Assembly: GCF_040954835.1 (NCBI RefSeq)
Contig: NC_090698.1
Span: 39,175,501-39,239,500, forward strand
DNA length: 64,000 bases
Source of the DNA: Lepisosteus oculatus
Lineage: Eukaryota > Chordata > Actinopteri > Semionotiformes > Lepisosteidae
Reading direction: 5' to 3'
Notes under the pieces: model-generated
Seen by the model: the letters and a program-made list of their open reading frames with translations, nothing else
The model's database searches: none
Told to the model about the DNA's origin: nothing
Made by a program: the position numbers and the translations under genes
Shown: in pieces, positions 36,764 through 58,733 of the stretch
How positions within the stretch are numbered: position 1 is the stretch's first letter
Layout of the letters: each line of letters opens with the position of its first letter

Positions 36764-38160
36764 TCAGTCCAGAAACAGGTCACTGTCAATGTTGCCTCTG
36801 CCCAGACGCAAGGTGGATGCGTTGTACAGTCTTATGGCAGAAGGCAAGAATGACCTCCTGTAGCGCTCTCTGTCGCACCGTGGATGAATCAGTCTATTGC
36901 TGAACGTGCTCTTCATTTCTGCAAGCCTGTCATAGAGGGGATGGGAGATGTTGTCCATGATGGCCTCTAGTTTGGACACCATTCTCCTCTCAGCCACTAC
37001 CTCCAAGGGGTCCAGGTCAGACCCAATGACAGAGCTTGCTCTCCTGATGAGCTTGTTCAGCCTTTTAGAATCCACTGCTCTAATCCCAGAGCCCCAGCAC
37101 ACCACTGCGTAGAAAATGGCACTCGCTACCACCGACTGATAGAACATATATAGCATCTTACTACACACATTGAAGGACCTGAGCCTCCTCAAGAAGTTAA
37201 GTCGGCTCTGTCCCTTCTTATAGATGGCCTCGATGTTCTTAGACCATTCCAGTCTATCGTCGATGTGCACTCCCAGGAACTTGTATGAGTCCACCATCTC
37301 CACGCCACTCCCATGGATGTAGACAGGAGTAGGTTTGACCTTTTTCCTCCTGAAATCTACCACCAGTTCCTTTGTCTTTGTTACATTCAGTTCCAAGTGG
37401 TTCACCCCACACCACTCCTTGAAGCTGCTGACCAGTCCTCTGTAGTCCTCTTCTGCTCACCCTTGATACATCCCACAATTGCAGAGTCATCTGAGAACTT
37501 CTGCAGGTGGCATGACTTTGAGTTCTACTTAGTCCGAAGTATAGAGGGTGAAGAGGAATGGAGAAAGAACTGTCCCTTGAGGTGCACCTGTGTTACTCAC
37601 TACCTGTTCAGACACACAGTTCTGAAGTCTCACAGACTGTGGTCTGCCTGTCAGCTAGTCAGTGATCCACGAGGTCATGGAAGCATCGACTTGCATCTCC
37701 TCCAGCTTCCTCCTTAGAAGTAAGGGCTGGATGGTATTGAAGGCACTGGAAAGTCGAAAAACATGATCCTTACATTGTTGCCAGCCCTGTCCAGGTGTGA
37801 GTAAGCCCTTTGCAGCATGTAGATGATCGCATCCTCCACACCAACACTGGGCTGGTAGGCAAACTGTAGGGTGTCCAGTGATGAGCTGACCAGGGGTCTC
37901 AGGTGGGATGACCAGCCTCTCCAGTGTCTTCATGACGTGAGAAGTCAGTGCAACTGGTCTGTAGTCGTTGAGGACAGAGGGGCGCCCTTTCTTTGGTACC
38001 GGGACCAGGCATGATGTCTTCCAGAGCACCGGGACTCTCTCCAAGCGCAGGCTCAGGTTGAACAGTCACTGGAGCACTCCGCTCAGCTGATCAGCACAGG
38101 CCCTCAGAATTCTGGGACAGATGTTATCCAGTCCTGTGGCCTTACCCTGATGCAGCCTCT
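36764..38160 (-). pseudogene. LINE reverse transcriptase domain, several frameshifts
   Basis: The RNA-dependent DNA polymerase of the same element. Blocks appear in the right order but in different frames: VLWKTSCLVPVPKKGRPS and NDYRPVALTSHVMKTLERL (38044-37900), then SSAFNTIQPLLL (about 37760-37710), then the FSDD catalytic box (about 37485-37497, the equivalent of YADD). The longest clean frame (37405-36764) covers the thumb and C-terminal part, with TKTKELVVDFRRKK, YKFLGVHIDDRLEW and YAVVCWGSG. At least four shifts separate these blocks, so no functional enzyme can be made. Confidence 0.9.
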
Positions 38161-38676
38161 TCAGCTCCTTCTTCACCTGGTCAGCCGTGATGGTCAGCCT
38201 GGCCTGGGGGATGGTGCCCATAGAGCTTTCAGTGCTGCAGGTGTTAATGGTGGAGGTGTTGGAGAGTGGCAGCTGTGGGGAATGGGGGGGTGAGTAGCTG
38301 TCGGTTTTTGTAGCTGGCGGTCATGTTTGTGGGGGGATGGAGGAGGTGTTGGGCAGTCGCAGCTGTGAAGGCTTAGGGAGCGTGTGGCTGTGGGGGGATG
38401 GGTGTTGAGCCACAGAGGGCCCTGAATCAAACCTGTTAAAGAAATGGTTCAACTCGTTGGCCATCTCCAGGTTCCCCTCTGTTGCACCCCCAGCCTGTTT
38501 GAAGCCAGAGATCTCTCTCATGCAGCTCCATACATCCCTCACCCTATTCCTTTGCAGCTTGTCCTCTACCTTCCTCCTGTAGGCGTCCTTGCTCTCTCTT
38601 AACTTCTGCTTTAGCTCCCTCTGTACACGCTTGACCCCTCCTTTATCTCCCCTCCTAAAGGCTCTCTTCTTGTCAT

Positions 38677-39656
38677 TCAGAAGAGCTTCAGGTCGCTGGT
38701 GATCCAGGGTTTGTTATTGGAAAAGAAGTGTACGTCTTTGGTGGGGATGGTGCTGTCTATGTCGTCCCCATCTGGTTCGCACAGCACATCCCAGTCGGTG
38801 GCCTCCAAAGCACCACGTAGATCCTCCATAGCCTCCTGAGACCATCTCCTCACAGTCCTCATGGTCACAGGTTGGCGCTGGACAATAGGCGTGTATAGTG
38901 GTGTAAGCAAGACAAGGTTGTGATCTGATCTGCCAAGGGGGGGAAGGGCTGTGGAACTATATGCATCCGTAGCATTGGCATATAATAAGTCCAGTGTTTT
39001 GTTTTCTCTGGTCGGGCACTTAACAAACTGGAAATAGATTTGTGGTTAAAGTCCCCTGAAATAGCTATAAATGCGCTAGGGTGCTTTGTTTGTAGCCTGG
39101 CTGTGACTGTGTTAATGACGTCACACGCTACCTCTGCATTTGCCGTAGGTGAAATGTAAACAACAGCAAAGATGGCGCATGTAAACTCCCATGGCAGATA
39201 GTACGGACACAGTCCTATGGCTACCAGTTCGATGTCTGGGTTACAGACGCGCTCCTTAACATGAGTATGTCCAGGATTACACCATCTGTTGTTGACAAGC
39301 ACCGCGAGCCCCCCTCCTTTCCTCTTACCGCTCTCGGTGTTTCTGTCCGCCCACACCGTCTGAAAGCCGCTGATGGTAACGTTCGAGTCTGGAATAAATT
39401 CCTGCAGCCACGTCTCGGTGAAACACATGATACTACATTCACGATACTCCCTCTGGCTCCTTACCAATGCTCCCAGTTCGTCCATTTTGTTCGCTAAGGA
39501 CCTCACATTTCCCATGATGATCGAAGGAAGGTAGGGTTTAAATCTCCTTCTCTTCGCCTTTCGCATCGCACCAGCCCTACAGCCTCGGCTTCTCCTCCTC
39601 AGCTCCTCCGGCACCGATGGCTTCTCTCCAGTGAGTAGAGCCGGACGCGCTAGCAC
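38677..39656 (-). pseudogene. LINE endonuclease domain, frameshifted
   Basis: An apurinic/apyrimidinic-type endonuclease would nick the target DNA for target-primed reverse transcription. The main frame (39656-38865) contains MGNVRSLANKMDEL, the catalytic-region CFTETWL, GGGLAVLV and ISGDFNH, in the usual order. The last conserved block, normally SDHN, falls in another frame: near 38935-38943 a run of seven guanines (seven cytosines on the coding strand) marks a likely slippage shift. The sequence then continues in the frame that reads LTPLYTPIVQRQPV and FSNNKPWITSDLK (38910-38677) before a further break. The frame has no ATG at its head, so the true start lay further upstream. Confidence 0.85.
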
Positions 39657-39925
39657 GATCAGCTGGTCCCGTGTGTAGACAATGCCTCTGTGGCTATCGG
39701 CATTGCAACCCGATAGAAACAGAGGTCCGAGTATCAGAAAAACAAGAAAAAGTTTCTCAGCTTCCTAGTATCCATCATGTTGCAATCGCAAATCTAGTTG
39801 CAGGCAAAGGAATGAAGAAAAAACACTAACACACTAGCATTAACTAACTGAAAGAAACAAAAAGACAACAAAAAGACACAGAGCTGCTGTAGCAGGCTGC
39901 CACTAACACAGCGCCATCTTAAATT

Positions 39926-48124: not shown

Positions 48125-48743
48125 GTAGGATCTGTAGCTTTTGTATTTAGAGAATACAAAAGCTGTAAATTTAAATCCACATCATTGAAGTACAAAAATG
48201 AGATATTGCAGGATCAGTGTCATTATTTGGTTTTCTTTTCACATCAAAGGAAGTAAATCATTTTTATAATGGCAATACATATAAAGTATTGTAATACATA
48301 ATACTGCTATAATATAATCTATAAATAATATAAAAATAATCTATTTCTGTTTCTAAAATATTATTATACAATTTAACAATTATAACCAAAAATAATTTTC
48401 AAAACAGATTGCCACTCAAATTTATGCACTGAGCAGGCTGCAGTCATTAAAGTGATTATATACATTATGAATTTTGAATGAAATCGTGATATTTATGATA
48501 AATCATCAAATAATCAAATTTCTCTCAAAGGAAGTGAAAATGTTCTTTAGAAGCCAAAAATATGTTTTCTTTAGTTTGTCAAAAGCTGTGTTGTGTAATT
48601 ATGACAGCAAATACCTTGCATTGAAAAGTAAATAAAATGTGTACAAATGAAGTACAGTCAAGAGTAAAAGGGTTTGCATAGAGTGTGCAAAATAAACATT
48701 AATACATTTAAATAAAAACACTAATAACAGTGCTTGTTAAAGG
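48125..48743. other. AT-rich spacer next to the transposon
   Basis: Non-coding host sequence to the left of the IS3EU-like transposon; nothing else seen. Confidence 0.5.
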
Positions 48744-48749
48744 GTTGTC
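48744..48749. repeat. Target-site duplication, left copy
   Basis: GTTGTC, identical to 57250-57255 at the other end of the transposon. Confidence 0.9.
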
Positions 48750-49404
48750 TATGGAAGCCCGTTTCCGCCAGGGAGTAAAAAAAAAACGCGCTATGGTATC
48801 TCAGAATTACGACTTAGTAAGTCAGAATTCCGACTTAGTATCTCAGAATTGCGACTTAGTAACTCAGAATTCCGACTTAGTAAGTCAGAATTCCGACTTA
48901 GTATCTCAGAATTGCGACTTAGCAACTCAGAATTCCGACTTAGCAACTCAGAATTCCGATTTAGTATCTCAGAATTGCGACTTAGTAAGTCAGAATTCCG
49001 ACTTAGCATCTCAGAATTGCGACTTAGTAAGTCAGAATTCTGACTTAGTATCTCAGAATTCCGACTTAGTAACTCAGAATTGCGACTTAGCATCTCAGAA
49101 TTCCGACTTAGTAAGTCAGAATTCTGACTTAGTATCTCAGAATTGCGACTTAGTAAGTCAGAATTCCGACATAGTATCTCAGAATTGCGACTTAGCAACT
49201 CAGAATTCCGACTTAGTAACTCAGAATTGCGACTTAGCATCTCAGAATTCCGACTTAGTAAGTCAGAATTCTGACTTAGTATCTCAGAATTGCGACTTAG
49301 TAAGTCAGAATTCCGACATAGTATCTCAGAATTGCGACTTAGCAACTCAGAATTCCGACTTAGTATCTCAGAATTCCGACTTAGTAACTCAGAATTGCGA
49401 CTTA
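48750..49404 (+). repeat. Left terminal inverted repeat with 29 tandem 21-bp units
   Basis: 46 unique bases are followed (48796-49404) by 29 head-to-tail units of the form GTAWSTCAGAATTSCGACTTA. Units vary at two places: the bases after AGT/AGC (AAG, ATC or AAC) and the centre (GAATTCC, GAATTCT or GAATTGC). Units 14-20 (49069-49215) are repeated as units 21-27 (49216-49362), a 147-bp duplication including a rare GACATA variant. Since 21 is a multiple of 3 and the unit holds no stop in several frames, long repetitive frames exist on both strands. The likely role is multiple transposase-binding sites. Confidence 0.93.
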
Positions 49405-49531
49405 AAATCATTCATAAATCGTACAAGATCTAAAGGCATGGAGAGTTGTATTGTCAAGTGCCCTGATAAAAATCAAATTAATGCAGGTCTACAATAGTTT
49501 TGCTCGTTATAATCCCTACACGGTTTGCAAG

Positions 49532-50840
49532 ATGGACACCATTATAGAGGACTTATTTTGTCGTGGTTACACAAACCATGAAATTTTGGTGTTATTGGAG
49601 GAATCACACAATGTAAAACTGAGTCTTCGGACCTTGGAAAGAATGCTGTGTAAGAATCAGCTCTGGCGAAGGCGAAACAAGACAGATGAAGCGGAGGTCG
49701 CCTCATTCATACACCAACAGCTACAGACTTCTGGCAGACATCATGGCTATCGGTGGATGCACCAAAAATGCTGGATGGCAGGGATAATAACGGATAGAGA
49801 GACTGTCCGTCAGTTACTGCGCCTTATGGACGGGCGAGGAGTAGATCTGCGTGCGCAAAATCGCCTGAGGCGCCGGCAGTATTACAGCCGCGGACCAAAC
49901 TATGTGTGGCATATTGATGGGTATGACAAATTAAAACCTTACGGGATATGCATCAACGGGTGCATTGATGGCTTCTCGAGAAAAATGATCTGGTTAGAAG
50001 CATACAAAACCAATAATGACCCACGAATTATTGCGGGTTATTTTATAGACGCTGTCTATAAAAACAACGGTCTTCCACAAAGAGTACGACTTGATCATGG
50101 AACCGAAAACACCCACGTTGCTGTAATGCAAAGGTTTCTGCGCGAAATGAATGAGGATAGCACAGAATGTGTCACTCTTGGCCCAAGCACTGGGAATCAG
50201 AGAATTGAACGCTGGTGGGCTACACTAAGAGCACAGTGCAGTCAGTTTTGGATGGACCATTTTGAACAGCTGAGAGAAGATGGGCATTTTGTTGACACCT
50301 TCATCGACAAATCACTCATTCAGTTTTGTTTCCAAAACACCATACAGGTAAATGTAACATACCTGTCATTACAGATTTTGATATGAATAGTAAAACATAA
50401 CATTCTACTATGTTTCATACTATTATACTTATTAAAGATCTCTTCTTTGAGTTCCATAAAGTGATTTAACAAACCTTATTTCAAAACAATTGATTTCTAT
50501 TGTGTAGGAGGAGCTCAATGAAGTGCTGACTGCCTGGAATAATCACAGAATAAGGCCAACCCACAACCCTCGCGCTCCCAGTGGACGACCTTCAGTGATG
50601 TATGCTGCCCCAAGTTTATATGGCGCACAGAACTATTTGCAGGCAGTTGACCAAATCAAAGTCGATATCTGTCGAGAAGACTGTTGTGTAAAGGACTACC
50701 CCTGTGATGAGGATGTCTTCCATCTTTGTGTTGAACTGATGGCTGAACAGAACCTTGCAATGCCAGATGATGTGTTTGAAATCACTGACCTTTACTTAAG
50801 ACTACGTGAAATGGTCCTCAATGGGCTGGACCTTGAGTAG
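49532..50840 (+). CDS. IS3EU-like DDE transposase (integrase core), two exons
   Basis: The enzyme would cut and join the transposon ends in the nucleus. Exons 49532-50347 and 50508-50840 are joined across a 160-bp phase-0 intron (CAG|GTAAAT donor; TTGTGTAG acceptor), giving about 382 residues. The start at 49532 has a strong context (AAGATGG); the open frame extends upstream to 49451 but begins with TTG, and 49481 is a weaker ATG. Residues 4-45 are a helical DNA-binding segment (RGYTNHEILVLLEE...RTLERML). An IS3-like helical part follows (HHGYRWMHQKC...TVRQLLRLMDGRGV, about 71-104). The rve core has its catalytic triad as D129 (WHIDGYDKL), D188 (VRLDHGTEN) and E226 (GNQRIERWW), with 58 and 37 residues between them. 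The second exon supplies the C-terminal part (TAWNNHRIRPTHN). No stop or shift is seen, so it may be functional. Confidence 0.92.
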
Positions 50841-51976
50841 GAATAGGAGAATAGGGGACTTTGCACTCTCTGGATAAGATAAACTGCTTACAAATGTGGG
50901 ATCTAGGTATAAGGGTGTTTTGTTTTTCTCAAATGCCACAGCATTTGATGTTACACATTAAAAGTGGTAAAGATGTTACCACTTTTAATGTGTTGTCTTT
51001 AGATCTGATTTAACATTGAGTGTGAAATAGGATGAAACAAGGAACAAATGAAAGTAAATGTGCCAAAAGATGCAAACAGTGTAAACAATCTTTAATGGAC
51101 TATAGATAATGTTCACACATAAAAGCAACCCAACTTTGATTTGACAATAACATTATCTAACATTATATGAAATGTTTGACAATAACATTACCTCACCTCT
51201 CTCATTTCCTTTCACCAAATGCAATGTAAATATAGTACAAATAATATTCACTAAATGCAAGGCATTTGAACTCATCTGCAATCTTGATGTTTCATAAAAA
51301 TGTCAGACAAAATCCACAAATAGCCAAACTAGTCAAACACAAATAAAAAAATTCAGATTCTGCAAAGTTACCGCTACCCCAAGAAACATCTAACTGAAGA
51401 GTTAATGACAAAGATTCATTCTAAATCAAGTGTTGACCAAAGTGAGCACTTAGAATTCATCTTTGCCATGAACTGTCCAGTTATTGTGCAAATAAACTCT
51501 GCTGCCATATTGTGACTAAATTACATAAAACGCAAAAGTTGTAACATTATTAGACACTACATGGCACCAGAGTTTATTGGCACCAAAGTGTTTGGTAGCT
51601 TAGAGAATGCACATCACTCAAAAAAGAACTTTTATTAAACTGCATCACCATATTTTTTTAAAGTGAAAAAACATCCATTAGTTTCTCACTCAATATACTG
51701 TATGAACAATCAGTCTAAAAGAAATTCTTGTACCAAAATGACAAAAATAAAAGTGCAATTTAACCTGAGACTTTTTAATTTCTTCAGTGAAATTATGAAC
51801 ATTCTATCATAAGTACACTCAAAACTCAGTATATCTTATATGCTTATATGTGTAAAGGTACAGACTTGGTCAGATGGCCTTTAAATGTGAATAAGTATAC
51901 TTTACCAAAAGTTTTGAATGGTGAAAGATGCACATATTTCTAATCTGTTTAGTCTGTAGGTCGACAGACTAAAATA
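50841..51976. other. Convergent 3' region between the two transposon genes
   Basis: The tails of both genes meet here. Likely signals are ATTAAA at 50957 for the transposase, and TTTATT (AATAAA on the minus strand) near 51572 and 51632 for the HECT gene. No further gene is visible. Confidence 0.55.
50953..50993. terminator. Perfect 18-bp inverted repeat with 5-base loop
   Basis: ACACATTAAAAGTGGTAA, loop AGATG, then the exact complement. It lies 112 bases beyond the transposase stop. Each arm contains ATTAAA when read on its own strand (plus 50957-50962, and the mirror site on the minus strand), and a TGTGTTGTCTTT stretch follows. A 3'-end-forming hairpin or a symmetric poly(A) signal is likely; the function is inferred. 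Confidence 0.6.
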
Positions 51977-54900
51977 CTAAACTATGTCCATTACCCATAT
52001 ATTACTTTCCAAAATTTTGTTCATTTCACACCTGAAGTCAGGATAGCTATCATAATGAATAGACACTCTCAAATAACAGCCACATGTATGTGCCATAGGT
52101 CTTCTCTCAAATCCTTGCATGTGTGTGAAGTCAACAGTTACAGTCTTGCCGAGAAAAAGATCTGAGCCTGTGCAGAACCTCAGGAACAGAGACTGTTTCC
52201 TTCCATCACACTCTCGCAGGTATGTTGTAATATGCTTTGATATTTCCTTTTCCTGTGCATTCATTGTGCAGGGAAACTTCAGTGACCGTATGATTTTCCT
52301 TGCCGTTGGCTGCAAGTTTTCATACACAGTTTCAATTTCCTCAAGGGCTTTGCTGAGGGGAGCGAGTACACTTTCCCACTGTTCGATAACATAAGCAGGC
52401 TCTTGAATAAGGGTTTTGTGAGCCAGTTCTTGCAGAATTTGTTCAATGTTGTGTGCATTTGGCATTCTTCGGCAGCTGTAGTTGTCCAAGATTTCCAGTA
52501 ATTCATCTTGGTCAGAACTGTTGAAGTCTCTGCGACAACATTCCAAGGTATAACGGTCAGATTCTGAGACATACTTTAGAAAATTGTCAACAAGATCACT
52601 CTTCACATATCCAAGAGCTGCCTGTTCCAAGATTACAGGAGCAAGCTTGATGGGCAAATACTTCTGTTTCTGCCAACCAAAAGAAATAATTTTACCTATA
52701 CTCTGCCACTTTTTTTTGCCATAGTCATGTCGGAGAAATGGTATCTTGAAAGTGCTGCCTGTTGTACATTGTTCGTAGAATTCATGCCAGAATTCAGAGA
52801 GGCAATCTCTGAGAACACCTCCATCATCGTATCCATTCTCATACTGCCCATTTGGTAGTAGAAGCTTTACTTGAATTTCTGATTGAGTATATGAAAGGCG
52901 TTCATCAGTGAAATGTTCAATAAGCTCAGATAGTATCTGGCTGCGATGGACAACAAGGATTTTTTTGTCTGGTTCCCTGAGTTCTTGTGCCAGAGGCAAA
53001 GTGTCTTCTAGACTTTGTTCTCCCATCTCAGAGAGGTCTCCATTGAAAATTGTAATAATATTGCTATCCTCCACATTTTCCCCAGTAAATATGGTAGAAC
53101 TTTGCTGAGCTAAACTGGAATCGTCTGTGACATCTGCAGGATAAAATTGTGCCACGTCATCACTGCCTAAGTTCAAATCATTTCCAGTATTTCCAACATA
53201 GATGACATCTAATGTTTCTAATTCCAATGGTGGATCAATTTGTGAGTCTGTAGAGGGAAAATCCTGTGTGTTTTCCTGTGAGTGATCTGCAGTGTTTGAT
53301 TCTTGCTGTGTCTCCACACCACCACTGTCATGTTTCTTTTTGGTTGACAGATAGAACCTCATGATAGTTAACTTTGAGGCTTCATATAGAGCTCCCACTG
53401 TACTGTCCTCATCTAAGGAAACTTCTTGATAATTTGTCAGATCCACCTCAAACTCAGAAATATTTCCATGTGCATTCTTTCCATCTGGGAAAAACAAACG
53501 TATTGCCTCCGTTATGAGGTCTTTTTTTTCCCAGTCCTTTGAAACACTTAACTTTCGTGTTCCACCACCCTTTTTGGTTCTCACCTGGATAAAGCCTCCT
53601 TTTCCTTCATCATACAGCATCCAGCCCAACTCCACTTTCCTTACTTTCCTCTGTGTGTTCACCTCTTGATGATGAGTGATGTTTTCTGGATGCTTACACT
53701 TTTTTCTTTTATTCAGTTTTGACTTCAGTCTATCAAAAAGCTTTGATTTCCTACTGTTGGGCTCTTTTTCGTGTCTCCTACAATATCCCATCACTGCCAA
53801 TCTGTCTCCATAAGATGGCAAATAATCCCTCATCTGTTCATCTGTCATTAACATCAGGACACTGGCATCAATCTAAAAATGAATAGTGAATTATCAATTT
53901 TCAGTTTCAAAATACCATACTTAAAGCATCATTTTATGTGGATCAATATGCTGATACTGGTTTAAGGAAATAGTCCATTCGGGATTGTGGAGGTACTGTA
54001 TGCAGTGAAAAAATCTACTATACGTGAAAATATCAATATACTGTACAGTACTGTGCAGAAGTCAGAGACCACCCTTGCATTTATTTAATTTCCAGTTCAA
54101 ACAGCCATTCAGTGCAAATTATTTAGTTTTTGGTGTCAGAAAATAATGCAAGAAACATATATTTGACAGAAGAGTACACTAAATATAATATCAAATCTAT
54201 CAGTATTTAATTTGCCCACTCTTTACTTTTGTGCACCCTTCAGGCACTTTAAGTCTTCCATCCTTCCAATCAAACAAGTTACAACTGTGTCCTCCCAACA
54301 CAAGTTGATCCCAAAACTGTCACTGACATTATATTAGAACACTTTCCATTAAAAGTGACACTAACATTCAAACAACTACCCAAACACACCGTAGCTGCCT
54401 TGCACATGTCTTTGTCATGTCCATCTGAAATGGCAAGAGGCGATATTTCTGATAAGATTAGCTATAAAGATAGTTCAGTTCAGTTGAGAACATCACCATC
54501 ACATAGACAGAAGTTAACGTTTTGATCACTCTTGCATCAGATCTGAAAAAAATCCACAAGTGTTTCTGTCAATACTTCCATTGTAAGAAGACAACACAAT
54601 GCTATGGGTCTGAAGGGATGCGTATCTGTCAAAAAGTCACTATTTGAAAAGGAAATAGACAAAAGAGAAGTAAATTTGCCCTAGAACACCAAAACTGGAC
54701 ACTTGAGATAAGTAAGGTTTTATAGATGATGAGTTACAGAGTGGATTTGGATTTGAACCAGCAGAAGCAGAAAATACAACCAACTTCTAAGACTGAAATT
54801 TGGAGGTGTTTACAAGAAGCATGAAAAAATATCCCAGTGGATTTATTTGAAAAACTCAAAGAAAGTCTCCTGTAAATAATGGAAGCTGTAATAAAGGCAA

Positions 54901-55243
54901 AGGGTGGACACGCTAAACAATGAAAGATCTGACATTATATTTAGTTGTGGATGCTTTTGTGTAATTTTGTGTTAAATATATGTTTCCTGGAATAATTCCT
55001 GACATTGAAAAATAAATTAATTGCACTTAATGACCGTTTTGACTGGAAATGAAATAAGTGAAAGGGTGGTCTCTGACTTTTCACAGTACTTAAAGTGCTG
55101 TTAATATCTACAGTAGGTCAGTGGGAGTTAGTTATAATAAACATGAACACATTCATTCTGTTAACTACCTTTTCTTCCTTCATTTTTTCGATAGTGGACT
55201 CTGGAATGTCCCTCTCCCTGAGGAAATCGATAAGATCTTCCAT
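51977..55243 (-). CDS. SAM-like/HECT-type E3 ubiquitin ligase carried by the transposon
   Basis: Exon 1 (55243-55169, 25 codons from ATG) joins exon 2 (53872-51977) over a phase-0 intron (AAG|GTAGTT; TTTTTAG acceptor), giving about 656 residues. The join rebuilds a SAM-like N-terminus: MEDLIDFLRERDIPEST at the end of exon 1 side, then LMTDEQMRDYLPSYGDRLAV in exon 2. A conserved module lies at about 105-205 (VELGWMLYDEG...GGGTRKLSV...LFFPDGK), followed by an acidic Ser/Thr-rich linker (about 205-325). The C-terminal HECT-type domain has YDDGGVLRDCLSEFWHEF, RFCTGSD, and PMAHTCGCYL with the expected catalytic cysteine at about 622, and ends SNIWVMDIV. HECT ligases accept ubiquitin on this cysteine and pass it to substrates. 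Fish relatives are often labelled G2/M-phase-specific E3 ligase (G2E3)-like. The frame is intact. Lying inside the TIRs, it travels with the transposon; substrate unknown. Confidence 0.9.
53873..55168 (-). other. Intron of the HECT-type gene
   Basis: A 1,296-bp intron with GT-AG ends that splits the SAM-like segment between codons. Most of it is the nested Tc1-like element, so the ancestral intron was only about 250 bp. Confidence 0.75.
54044..55092 (+). mobile_element. Decayed Tc1/mariner-like element nested in the intron
   Basis: Inverted ends of about 55 bases: TACAGTACTGTGCAGAAGTC on the left and, on the right, the complement of a near match (GACTTTTCACAGTACTTA). Both contain GAGACCACCCTT and a TTTCCAGT stretch further in. 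TA dinucleotides at both borders fit the Tc1 target. Near 54800-54920 the plus strand reads a relic of the transposase C-terminus (LQEAWKN-PVDLFEKL-ESLL, then AVIKAKGGHAK) with stops. It postdates the host transposon. Confidence 0.85.
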
Positions 55244-56721
55244 CCTGGAATTGTGGCCTAGGAAGCACACATGGGACAGTGGTGCAGCATTGATTAGTTA
55301 GCATAGTGTAATTACCTAGCCTCCTGTTTGCCCAGACTCCAACAGTATGCATTATAGTACATTTAGAAGTAGTCCAGGACAGGCAACGATGACCAACACT
55401 CGCCACACATTTGCATTCACAGGGTGCACATACAGTAGGTCACACCCCAAGGGTATGTGAATGACAAATGTAGAGTAGGCTTTTCAATTTAATCTGACTT
55501 GTCACACACAGTATGCATTCACAGGCAGCACCTCACTCAACTAATCACTGTCTATAGAACACCCGGTTAGCTTGAGCTCAAAGATACAGATTTGATACAG
55601 TCTAAACTCTGCAGAAAGTTATATCTCTTGAAAGAGGGTTGGTCAATACTAACCTAGTGACTAGTTTTAACCTACTGTACTTTACCTTGTAATCATCTTA
55701 AGAGCAGCTAACTTATCAAAAAGTTACAGAAAGCTGAATTAAACCACAGCTGTAAAAACATGTTCTGTAAACCAAAAATTGATATAACTAAGTTTTGGAA
55801 TTGTTACTAAACACACACGAATGTCTTCATTATGATAACGGTTGTTTTGTGCGTGTCACTTGGTAATTTACAGCCTTAGGAAGCCGAAAAGACCGGATGG
55901 AGGGTTTGTAAAAATTAGACCGTTGTGCCTATCAAAGTCCGGCTCGGGAGACACACGGGCCGCTCCCATGGCAAGACGTTTGCGACAGTTTAATGTAGCC
56001 TGATCATGTTTAGTAAACATAAACATGCTTGTGATCCTGGTATGTTTCTGAGAGATACGCAATCACAGAATTGTATCTGAGCAATTAGACGGAGAGATAC
56101 TGGGGTTTGTCCAAGTACATTATTGGAAGGATATTGAAAATAAATAAGCATATCAAATCTCTTAACGTACAAAGGGGGAGAGTAAACAAAAATAATAAAA
56201 GACGTTCCCTTTAATGTATGTCTGTATTGTTACGGGTTTCATTAATTGTATCGAAGCAAATTTATGTTTTGATCGTGAATAGGCGACCCCAGATTGACTC
56301 GCGTAGAAGCTCATAGCACCATCCTCGCTCATATGGGTCCAAAGCTAGCTATGTTACTGTGCTGAAATAGCTGCTGGTAAAGTGTTTGCAGGAGCTGCCT
56401 TGTACTAACGGACGAAACCCCCACAAGTGTATAGGCCTACTGTTAGTTTTGCCTCATTAATTAGGTCGCACTTGAAAAGGTTAAATCGATCAACCAAAAC
56501 CATCCAAGTAGCTCTTGCATATGATTTTTTTTTACTTAGCTACGTTAGTCTATGTACAATTTACGCAGACGTTATTTAAGTCTGTGAATTGTATGAAGAT
56601 ATCAGTAGAATGTGGCACTGTACCTGGATTCAATTGTGAACAGTAGATTTCCTATGCCAGATGAGCAACCTACTGTACTTTCATTGCTGGCGCCAGAAGT
56701 GACGTCAAAACTGTGAGACTT
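55244..56721 (-). promoter_or_regulatory. Probable promoter and leader region of the HECT-type gene
   Basis: Between exon 1 and the right array lies about 1.5 kb without a convincing gene. Parts (55870-56110 and 56270-56340) are rich in CpG compared with the rest of the window. A consensus cAMP-response element TGACGTCA is at 56700-56707 and the palindrome CTGGCGCCAG at about 56687-56696, just inside the right array. A TTCCTAG acceptor-like site lies 18 bases upstream of the exon 1 ATG, so a non-coding first exon is possible. All of this is inferred from motifs. Confidence 0.4.
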
Positions 56722-57249
56722 GAAGTCGGAATTCTGAGTTGCTAAATCGCAATTCTGAGATACTAAGTCGGAATTCCGAGTTGCTAAGTCGCAATTCTGA
56801 GATACTAAGTCGGAATTCTGAGTTACTAAGTCGGAATTCTGAGATGCTAAGTCGCAATTCTGAGTTGCTAAGTCGGAATTCTGACTTACTAAGTCGCAAT
56901 TCTGAGATACTAAGTCGGAATTCTGACTTACTAAGTCGCAATTCTGAGATACTAAGTCGGAATTCTGAGTTGCTAAGTCGCAATTCTGAGATACTAAGTC
57001 GGAATTCTGACTTACTAAGTCGCAATTCTGAGATACTAAGTCGGAATTCTGACTTATTAAGTCGCAATTCTGACTTACTAAGTCGGAATTCTGAGATACT
57101 AAGTCGGAATTCTGACTTACTAAGTCGGAATTCTGACTTACTAAGTCGCAATTCTGAGATACTAAGTCGGAATTCTGACTTACTAAGTCGGAATTCTGAG
57201 ATACCATAGCGCGTTTTTTTTTACTCCCTGGCGGAAACGGGCTTCCATA
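56722..57249 (-). repeat. Right terminal inverted repeat with 23 tandem 21-bp units
   Basis: Mirror image of the left end. The terminal 45 bases (57205-57249) match the left, and 23 units of 21 bp (56722-57204) have the same variant positions. The unit order differs from the left array and the 147-bp duplication is missing, so the arrays evolve independently by gain and loss of units. The inward frame reads KKKRAM followed by heptads such as SQNSDLV on both ends. Confidence 0.93.
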
Positions 57250-57255
57250 GTTGTC
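57250..57255. repeat. Target-site duplication, right copy
   Basis: GTTGTC, identical to 48744-48749. Confidence 0.9.
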
Positions 57256-58733
57256 AGTGTGCACCGATGAGTTGAACAGTACTGTTTAACTGTTAGTGAA
57301 ATATCTCTGGATTTCACAAAACATATAGCAGTATTGCAGGCCTAAAAAGTGTTAAAAAATCACATCCATAGGGGATAACTAGTTGCACGCAGGCTTTTGT
57401 TGTGAGTTCCCAGTTGTGTTACTATGTATTTAATAAAATAACCAATCAACAAATTATAGTACAAAGCCACTTTTGCTGGATTTTGTCTTGTTCCCAGAGA
57501 AAAATTGAATAATGCTTAATGTAAACATCAAATACTGTGTAGTAGGAGAATAATAGCTTCTGAAGGCATCCAAATTGGTGGACCTTGACATGTGAGAACA
57601 TTTCAAAATGTATGGTGCATATGCCGAATATCATAATCATAGATCAGCCCCTACCTTTTTGAGACCAGGAAATATGAAGAGGTTTTTTTCTGGGTACCCA
57701 TGGAAATTTCAATATCTAAATATGCTATCACAGCAGGATGGAGAATTTACAGTAGTTACGTAACATCATGACATTAGAACGAGCCCTAATGATTCGATTC
57801 TGGCTAGGCTATCTTGAAATTGCTTCAGGTGAGCTCTATATTTTTCCATCTTATACTTTAGCATCAGTGGTATTCTTCAGGTGAAAGGAAAAATCTTAAT
57901 TGAAGGTCAAATATGAAATTATTTGTCCTTCATTGAAGCAAACACTATACTTCCTAAATTTGAACATAAAAATACATGTGAAAGTGGACTGTCCATCATC
58001 AGGAAGCTGCTCTTTCTTGTCAAGAGTAAAGAAAACCAGGAGCCTATCGTGGAAGGTAGGACTACACCTTGAACAGGATGGCAATGAGTATGAGCTATTG
58101 AATTTTTTTTATTATTATTCTGTCATGCATTGTAAAATGTTACAACACTGCACTATTGTAAAAAAAAAGTAATGTATAAAAAATAAAATCTCATTTTACC
58201 AGAAATATGAAATATGTAGTTCTTAAAGACAGATAGTGTGTTCACATTGATTTTTACACCTTGATAAGTGCAATTATTTAAACTGTGCTTGGTATTAATG
58301 TAAATTATGCAACCTTCTTGGCCAAAGACTTTGGATTTTGTAACAAACATCTTACAATTCTTCCATCAGAAAATCAATACTGAAACTGAGCAAATAAGAA
58401 ACAGTTAAATTTTAGAACAGTGCAAATGATATACTGGCAGGTCATTTATTGGCACAGGGCATGGAGTTTGCTTTATATTAAAGGCAGTCCACCAACATCC
58501 TCTTACAACAAGAAACACAAACCTTTATTCTGAGATACTAACCATGTGATTTTTAAAATAGTATTTTTAACAAATAAAAACCTGTAGCCAGACTCATGTG
58601 TTGAACACATTTGACAGTCAAATTTCCTTTTAAGACAGTAAAATAGTGAATGGTACAGTCTTTCCTAACATAATCCCAGGATATTTTTTATTTTCTTAAT
58701 TTCTGCTTAAATCTGCTGAAATAAACAGAGATC
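57256..58733. other. Non-coding host DNA
   Basis: AT-rich, with no supported gene or repeat. Confidence 0.5.

Follow-up and report, generated by a model that had tools for sequence, protein, structure and literature searches.

A probable intact IS3EU/GingerRoot DNA transposon with a predicted HECT-type ligase gene in the gar genome

Does the gar Lepisosteus oculatus carry a complete IS3EU transposon, and has its family moved recently? The question is raised by a segment of exactly 8,500 bp (48750-57249) in a stretch of 64,000 nucleotides from contig NC_090698.1 (positions 39,175,501 to 39,239,500 of assembly GCF_040954835.1), which we refer to as the window and whose coordinates are used throughout. 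Judging from sequence, we consider it about 87% probable that this segment is an intact, autonomous IS3EU/GingerRoot DNA transposon whose family moved very recently in the gar genome. The gar element adds a new member to a superfamily that is known but little studied. According to the portions of PMC10045372 available to us, IS3EU elements have TA..TA ends and usually 6-bp target duplications; in 2022 Repbase counted 45 families, including 17 autonomous ones. Among papers that mention IS3EU, no experimental study of its transposition is evident by title, and none of the matches listed treats IS3EU together with gar.

An element with inverted ends and two open genes

An earlier reading of the letters alone (the sequence-only reading) had placed the borders at two GTTGTC hexamers around exactly 8,500 bp, and on re-reading these proved exact to the base. 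The termini, TATGGAAGCCCG../..CGGGCTTCCATA, form the matching TAT...ATA inverted ends that it described, in full TATGG..CCATA. The inverted repeat is perfect for 36 bp, differs by one A in an A-run, and then matches again up to two subterminal arrays of 21-bp units. The features are as follows:

48744..48749, no strand: target-site duplication, left copy, GTTGTC
48750..48795, + strand: left terminal inverted repeat, 46 bp, TATGGAAGCCCG...
48796..49404, + strand: left subterminal array, 29 x 21 bp, without indels
49532..50347, + strand: transposase exon 1, 272 amino acids (aa), catalytic D129, D188 and E226; Pfam PF24764, 1.4e-29
50348..50507, + strand: transposase intron, 160 nt, GT..AG; homologous proteins continue over the junction
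50508..50840, + strand: transposase exon 2 with stop, 110 aa
51977..53872, - strand: HECT gene exon 2 with stop, 631 aa; predicted HECT fold, Cys622
53873..55168, - strand: HECT gene intron, 1,296 nt, GT..AG
55169..55243, - strand: HECT gene exon 1 (25 aa), where a helical, weakly SAM-like region begins; joined to exon 2 as in the annotated gar protein P0121
56723..57204, - strand: right subterminal array, 23 x 21 bp
57205..57249, - strand: right terminal inverted repeat, 45 bp
57250..57255, no strand: target-site duplication, right copy, GTTGTC

Both genes are open across GT..AG introns, the transposase intron lying at 50348-50507 as had been claimed, and the ends, arrays, frames and splice sites are all kept, in agreement with the description of a complete, intact copy.

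Copies throughout the genome share the same borders

We searched the gar genome (1.2 Gb in 813 contigs) with a 26-bp version of the terminus, as the sequence-only reading had proposed, and found 2,110 matches (1,046 + 1,064) at up to three mismatches; the reversed control gave 0. Because the genome holds only 27 transposase and 35 HECT places (merged by hand from 33 and 38 matches, respectively), these roughly 2,100 ends would mostly belong to short copies, probably about a thousand of them. At G000:C3:10505031-10529493, five exact termini on one strand are spaced by about 6 kb, which suggests a tandem segmental duplication containing a copy.

From the 40 best-scored of 1,265 terminus candidates, we obtained 32 two-ended copies, the window's included, a set biased toward well-kept copies. 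Perfect 6-bp target duplications flank 30 of the 32 at the same borders, against a chance expectation of about 1/4,096 per copy at equal base frequencies, so the TAT..ATA borders proposed for the window copy also hold for other copies. As written, all 30 duplications differ in sequence; those of L014 and L038 represent one site in two repeat copies, read on opposite strands. TAT is present at all 64 ends, of which the first 26 bp are nearly invariant. Because these ends were picked by similarity to the terminus, support for TA..TA comes from the adjacent duplications. In L016, the duplication has one mismatch. L041 has no duplication at its own ends, but ATTCAG follows its right end and also precedes an outer left end (61 bases fetched), indicating nested insertions rather than a failed duplication.

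Empty sites provided a further line of evidence. When the flanks of L036 were joined with one GATAGC, the result matched across the junction at 40 listed places of a gar repeat (40 scored of 2,594 candidates), and all five that we fetched have a single GATAGC and an ungapped junction; these sites are paralogous, not orthologous. L039 is inserted at CGTTTC within the terminal repeat of a different copy, and its joined flanks restore the first 26 bases of a normal terminus. The flanks of the window locus occur nowhere else in the genome, leaving no paralogous empty site there, which counts against our reading. Thus, the suggestion that empty sites would carry a single hexamer was borne out in paralogous repeats and found no counterpart at the window locus itself.

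Several copies have unusual structures. The short copies L014 and L038 occupy the same position in two copies of a palindromic repeat (contigs C38 and C401), either through duplication of the region or because the site is preferred. L012, L034, L040 and L041 are nested insertions in which one arm has apparently been lost, perhaps by recombination between identical ends, so that composites remain; a perfect outer duplication persists in L012, L034 and L040. In L043 (G000:C15:10572000-10576000, from 1995 onwards), a short copy, beyond the right end come one base, a mirror copy of that end 17 bases long, TA, and an apparent second target duplication, TAAATG. This palindromic end could stem from a hairpin or template switch during transposition.

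The transposase and the assignment to IS3EU

The transposase comprises 382 residues encoded by two exons, with the catalytic D129, D188 and E226 at spacings of 58 and 37 residues, and the exon 1 product matches the integrase core model PF24764 listed above. Sequence of an environmental relative, P0023, tracks the family up to the exon junction and then diverges, as expected with a shared intron position. The transposase protein as read has no CxxC before D129 and no HHCC finger ahead of the core. At an E-value limit of 10, NCBIfam models for IS481 matched 33 of 35 transposase relatives (best 1.8e-11) and those for IS3 matched 30 (best 1e-10); in the single member shown, both matches fall far under the models' own cut-offs. 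A structure model of a relative with 79% identity has the integrase fold, with TnsB and IstA as fold neighbours. These relatives came from the fold search; a sequence search of the PDB with the transposase profile returned two weak, unrelated matches. No relative was confirmed among 73 and 78 pattern matches in viral contigs.

The TATGG..CCATA ends, the 6-bp duplications and an IS481/IS3-like DDE transposase lacking an HHCC finger sustain the IS3EU-like assignment made from sequence alone. Membership is supported by defining features, not by a tree with named Repbase members. To the sequence-only reading the present analysis adds the size of the family (about 2,100 ends), the predicted identity of the second gene, the 21-bp arrays as a component common to the short copies, and the position of the window copy beside the latest burst. 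To our knowledge, bacterial IS481/IS3 elements have no intron and no cargo ligase; their transposases are related to that of gar by the NCBIfam models. In the portions of PMC10045372 available to us, IS3EU/GingerRoot elements resemble the gar element in the TA..TA ends, 6-bp duplications, IS481/IS3-related DDE transposase and lack of an HHCC finger; their first catalytic D lies 100-300 residues into the protein, a range that D129 fits. Bacterial IS481/IS3 ends are TG..CA (PMC10045372). Fungal IS3EU elements with TET/JBP genes, as far as the accessible part of PMC12730594 describes them, have TAYGG..CCRTA ends and an alpha-kinase gene opposite in orientation to the transposase; the gar element is alike in its ends, 6-bp duplications, terminal repeats of more than 30 bp and second gene on the opposite strand. 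Their cargo is an alpha-kinase and a TET/JBP dioxygenase, whereas the gar element carries a predicted HECT ligase instead.

Recent movement and short copies

Ten full-length copies contain the core, and both genes are open in six of them (the window copy, L009, L010, L012, L025 and L026). Pairwise, five of the six are 1-3 substitutions apart over 7,319 bp; the window copy differs from each of these five by 7-8 substitutions and one indel over the same length. Such small distances (1-8 substitutions among six intact copies) point to recent movement. The window copy has the older state at 51947, 54804 and 56172 and private changes at 51256, 51662 and 53530, one of which lies in the HECT protein; we thus regard it as a close sister of the latest burst, not a member. 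It encodes the same transposase protein as the five burst copies. In the four older full-length copies (L011, L022, L029 and L034), HECT is broken in all and the transposase in three, that of L022 being open; those with a broken HECT gene still carry perfect duplications. The gar genome supplies near-identical intact full-length copies, proven ends and a target preference (see below) for work on transposition.

The other 22 of the 32 copies are short, between 649 and 3,352 bp, and none matches the core at E 1e-10. The middles of ten were read; by eye, a short stretch is all that they share with the sequence immediately inward of the left array. All 22 nevertheless keep the terminal repeat and the arrays, which are reduced to 4 or 5 units on one side in two copies. 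These short copies form a natural deletion series, which suggests that movement requires, in cis, the terminal repeat and the 21-bp arrays.

Subterminal arrays, target preference and a proposed mechanism

Tandem Repeats Finder counted 29 units of 21 bp in the left array and 23 in the right, without indels. The unit is nearly palindromic: at the best center, 50 units match on average at 14.7 of 20 positions, compared with 11.2 when shuffled. Its period equals two helical turns, and the likeliest function of the unit is that of a putative binding site for a dimeric transposase. Array length varies among near-identical full-length copies in 21-bp steps, plus or minus one base of the A-run, indicating that unit number shifts faster than sequence. 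Since the 21-bp unit spans seven codons and contains no stop, each array can also be translated as a long open frame with a 7-residue repeat (48712-49497 and 56602-57285); these frames are most likely a by-product.

Target preference was analyzed at 29 sites (58 half-sites) from the 32 copies, leaving out L016 and L041, which have no perfect duplication, and L038, whose site is shared with L014. C occurs two bases outside the duplication in 29 of 58 half-sites and G is its first base in 29 of 58 (each p 5.8e-10 against flank composition). Of the 33 columns, the next strongest falls far behind, and for the inner AWWT there is no more than a tendency. The resulting pattern is palindromic (C, any base, GAWWTC, any base, G).

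We propose the following mechanism. The transposase, with a helical N-terminus that we take to be a helix-turn-helix ahead of the DDE RNase H core, would bind the terminal repeat and the 21-bp near-palindromes, which, repeating every two helical turns, would present their sites on one face of the DNA. It would then pair the ends and join them to the two strands of a weakly palindromic target at positions staggered by 6 bp, and fill-in of the gaps would produce the duplication. Short copies would be mobilised by the same transposase. For excision, we lean toward a cut-and-paste rather than a copy-out route.

A predicted HECT-type ligase gene

The second gene, on the strand opposite to the transposase (exons 55243-55169 and 53872-51977, intron 1,296 nt), encodes 656 residues, and from sequence and a structural model its product is predicted to be a HECT-type ubiquitin ligase. 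A bilobal HECT fold spans residues 323-654 with an AHTC catalytic cysteine (Cys622) that is at least 90% conserved among 28 relatives. The bilobal fold and the AHTC cysteine are common to UBR5, HUWE1 and E6AP, from which the gar protein differs in its low identity to HECT ligases (11-16% among the 50 Foldseek matches listed), in being encoded by a transposon, and in a weakly SAM-like N-terminus (SAM_3 matched 2 of the 28 relatives, best E 0.03). An annotated Lepisosteus oculatus protein, P0121, is one residue off the HECT protein of the window copy and identical to that of four other genome copies, which points to spotted gar or a very close relative as the host and bears out the fish assignment of the sequence-only reading.

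A HECT gene lies within 7 kb of 25 of the 27 transposase places, and 9 of the 35 HECT places have no transposase match inside 12 kb, both limits being of our choosing. HECT genes paired with related transposases are also present in other fishes and in the beetle Photinus. Compared with two old relics, the HECT gene has dN/dS ratios of 0.49 (one-sided Fisher p 8e-5) and 0.63 (p 0.012), which suggests past purifying selection. A cluster of HECT and transposase pieces at G000:C23:54248-648460, about 94-98% identical to the window copy, is perhaps an amplified older copy.

In our proposal, this convergent gene would be kept by selection, its most likely role being to modify a host or transposon protein such that silencing is reduced or transposition increased. 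By analogy with the supposed use of TET/JBP in fungi, the ligase could act against host silencing or control transposase or repair factors. More broadly, and with slightly less than even confidence, we suggest that animal IS3EU elements are a long-lived lineage in which HECT is a selected effector, forming with the phased 21-bp arrays a distinct variant of the superfamily, and that copies in gar can still move. With its HECT cargo and phased arrays, the gar element may represent a recognisable animal variant. The words HECT and subterminal are absent from the main text of PMC10045372 in the form available to us, and a limited literature search that did not include Repbase found no paper linking HECT to an IS3EU-type transposon. 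The gene raises a testable question, namely whether a transposon makes use of the host ubiquitin system.

Alternative explanations

Ginger1, Ginger2/TDD and Polinton elements share the DDE integrase fold that was modelled for the gar family, and the element might on that ground belong to one of them instead of IS3EU. We consider this highly improbable, since the gar element has 6-bp duplications, TA..TA ends, no HHCC finger, an IS481/IS3-type sequence and no polymerase gene that we could see. Polinton/Maverick elements carry a protein-primed DNA polymerase and virus-like genes, whereas the 8.5 kb hold, outside the arrays, only two long genes, for the integrase and the HECT protein. Ginger1 has 4-bp duplications and an HHCC finger, and Ginger2 has 4-5-bp duplications (PMC10045372, in the portions available to us); gar copies agree with Ginger1 in neither respect, and their 6 bp also set them apart from Ginger2/TDD. 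It is likewise improbable, if less extremely so, that the window copy is a dead relic with an intact appearance: it lies outside the burst clade and has three private changes, one in the HECT protein, yet its transposase protein is the same as that of the five burst copies and its frames, splice sites, ends and arrays are kept. Movement by copy-out/paste-in through a circle, as in bacterial IS3, is the less likely route, though a serious contender: the IS3 model matches 30 of 35 transposase relatives, and the fold neighbours TnsB and IstA belong to elements of which not all use simple cut-and-paste. Against it, right and left ends abut, 0-30 bp apart, at only one place in the genome, which is weak evidence given that no mismatches were allowed and circles are transient. 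That candidate circle junction, at C15:10573978, reads as a short palindromic end duplication instead.

The HECT gene could also be a neutral passenger of host origin without a role in the transposon, which we regard as rather unlikely. Such a passenger would fit the breakage of HECT in all four older full-length copies, which still bear perfect duplications and include L022 with its open transposase, as well as the nine HECT places that stand apart from any transposase match. The gene's position beside nearly every transposase place, its open frame in all six young copies, the dN/dS ratios against the two relics, the recurrence of the pair in other fishes and Photinus, and the conserved cysteine argue instead for a selected function. 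Several observations weigh against our reading of the gene. On its own, the gar HECT protein scores under the Pfam HECT cut-off (21.1 vs 23.9 bits). Both relics used for dN/dS are without a transposase match inside 12 kb, so their membership in the element is not established, and four younger broken copies give ratios of 0.60, 1.03, 0.52 and 0.56 on 5-16 substitutions each, too few to decide. Finally, co-divergence found no support: transposase and HECT distances are not significantly correlated across ten paired sources (Mantel r 0.44, 554 of 10,000 shuffles; with the beetle left out, r 0.11, 2,270 of 10,000), in what is a weak test, as the sources are nine species and one environmental contig, with most pairings indirect and Paramormyrops paired by species only. 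The genes may therefore have been exchanged, or some pairs may be wrong.

Other sequence in the window

Outside the element, 36767-39764 (- strand) contains broken pieces of a LINE-like retrotransposon. Two further pieces of this region had no match; the region otherwise gave a weak reverse transcriptase match, below the cut-off (E 0.0075), and a match to ALKBH8_N at 4.7e-11.
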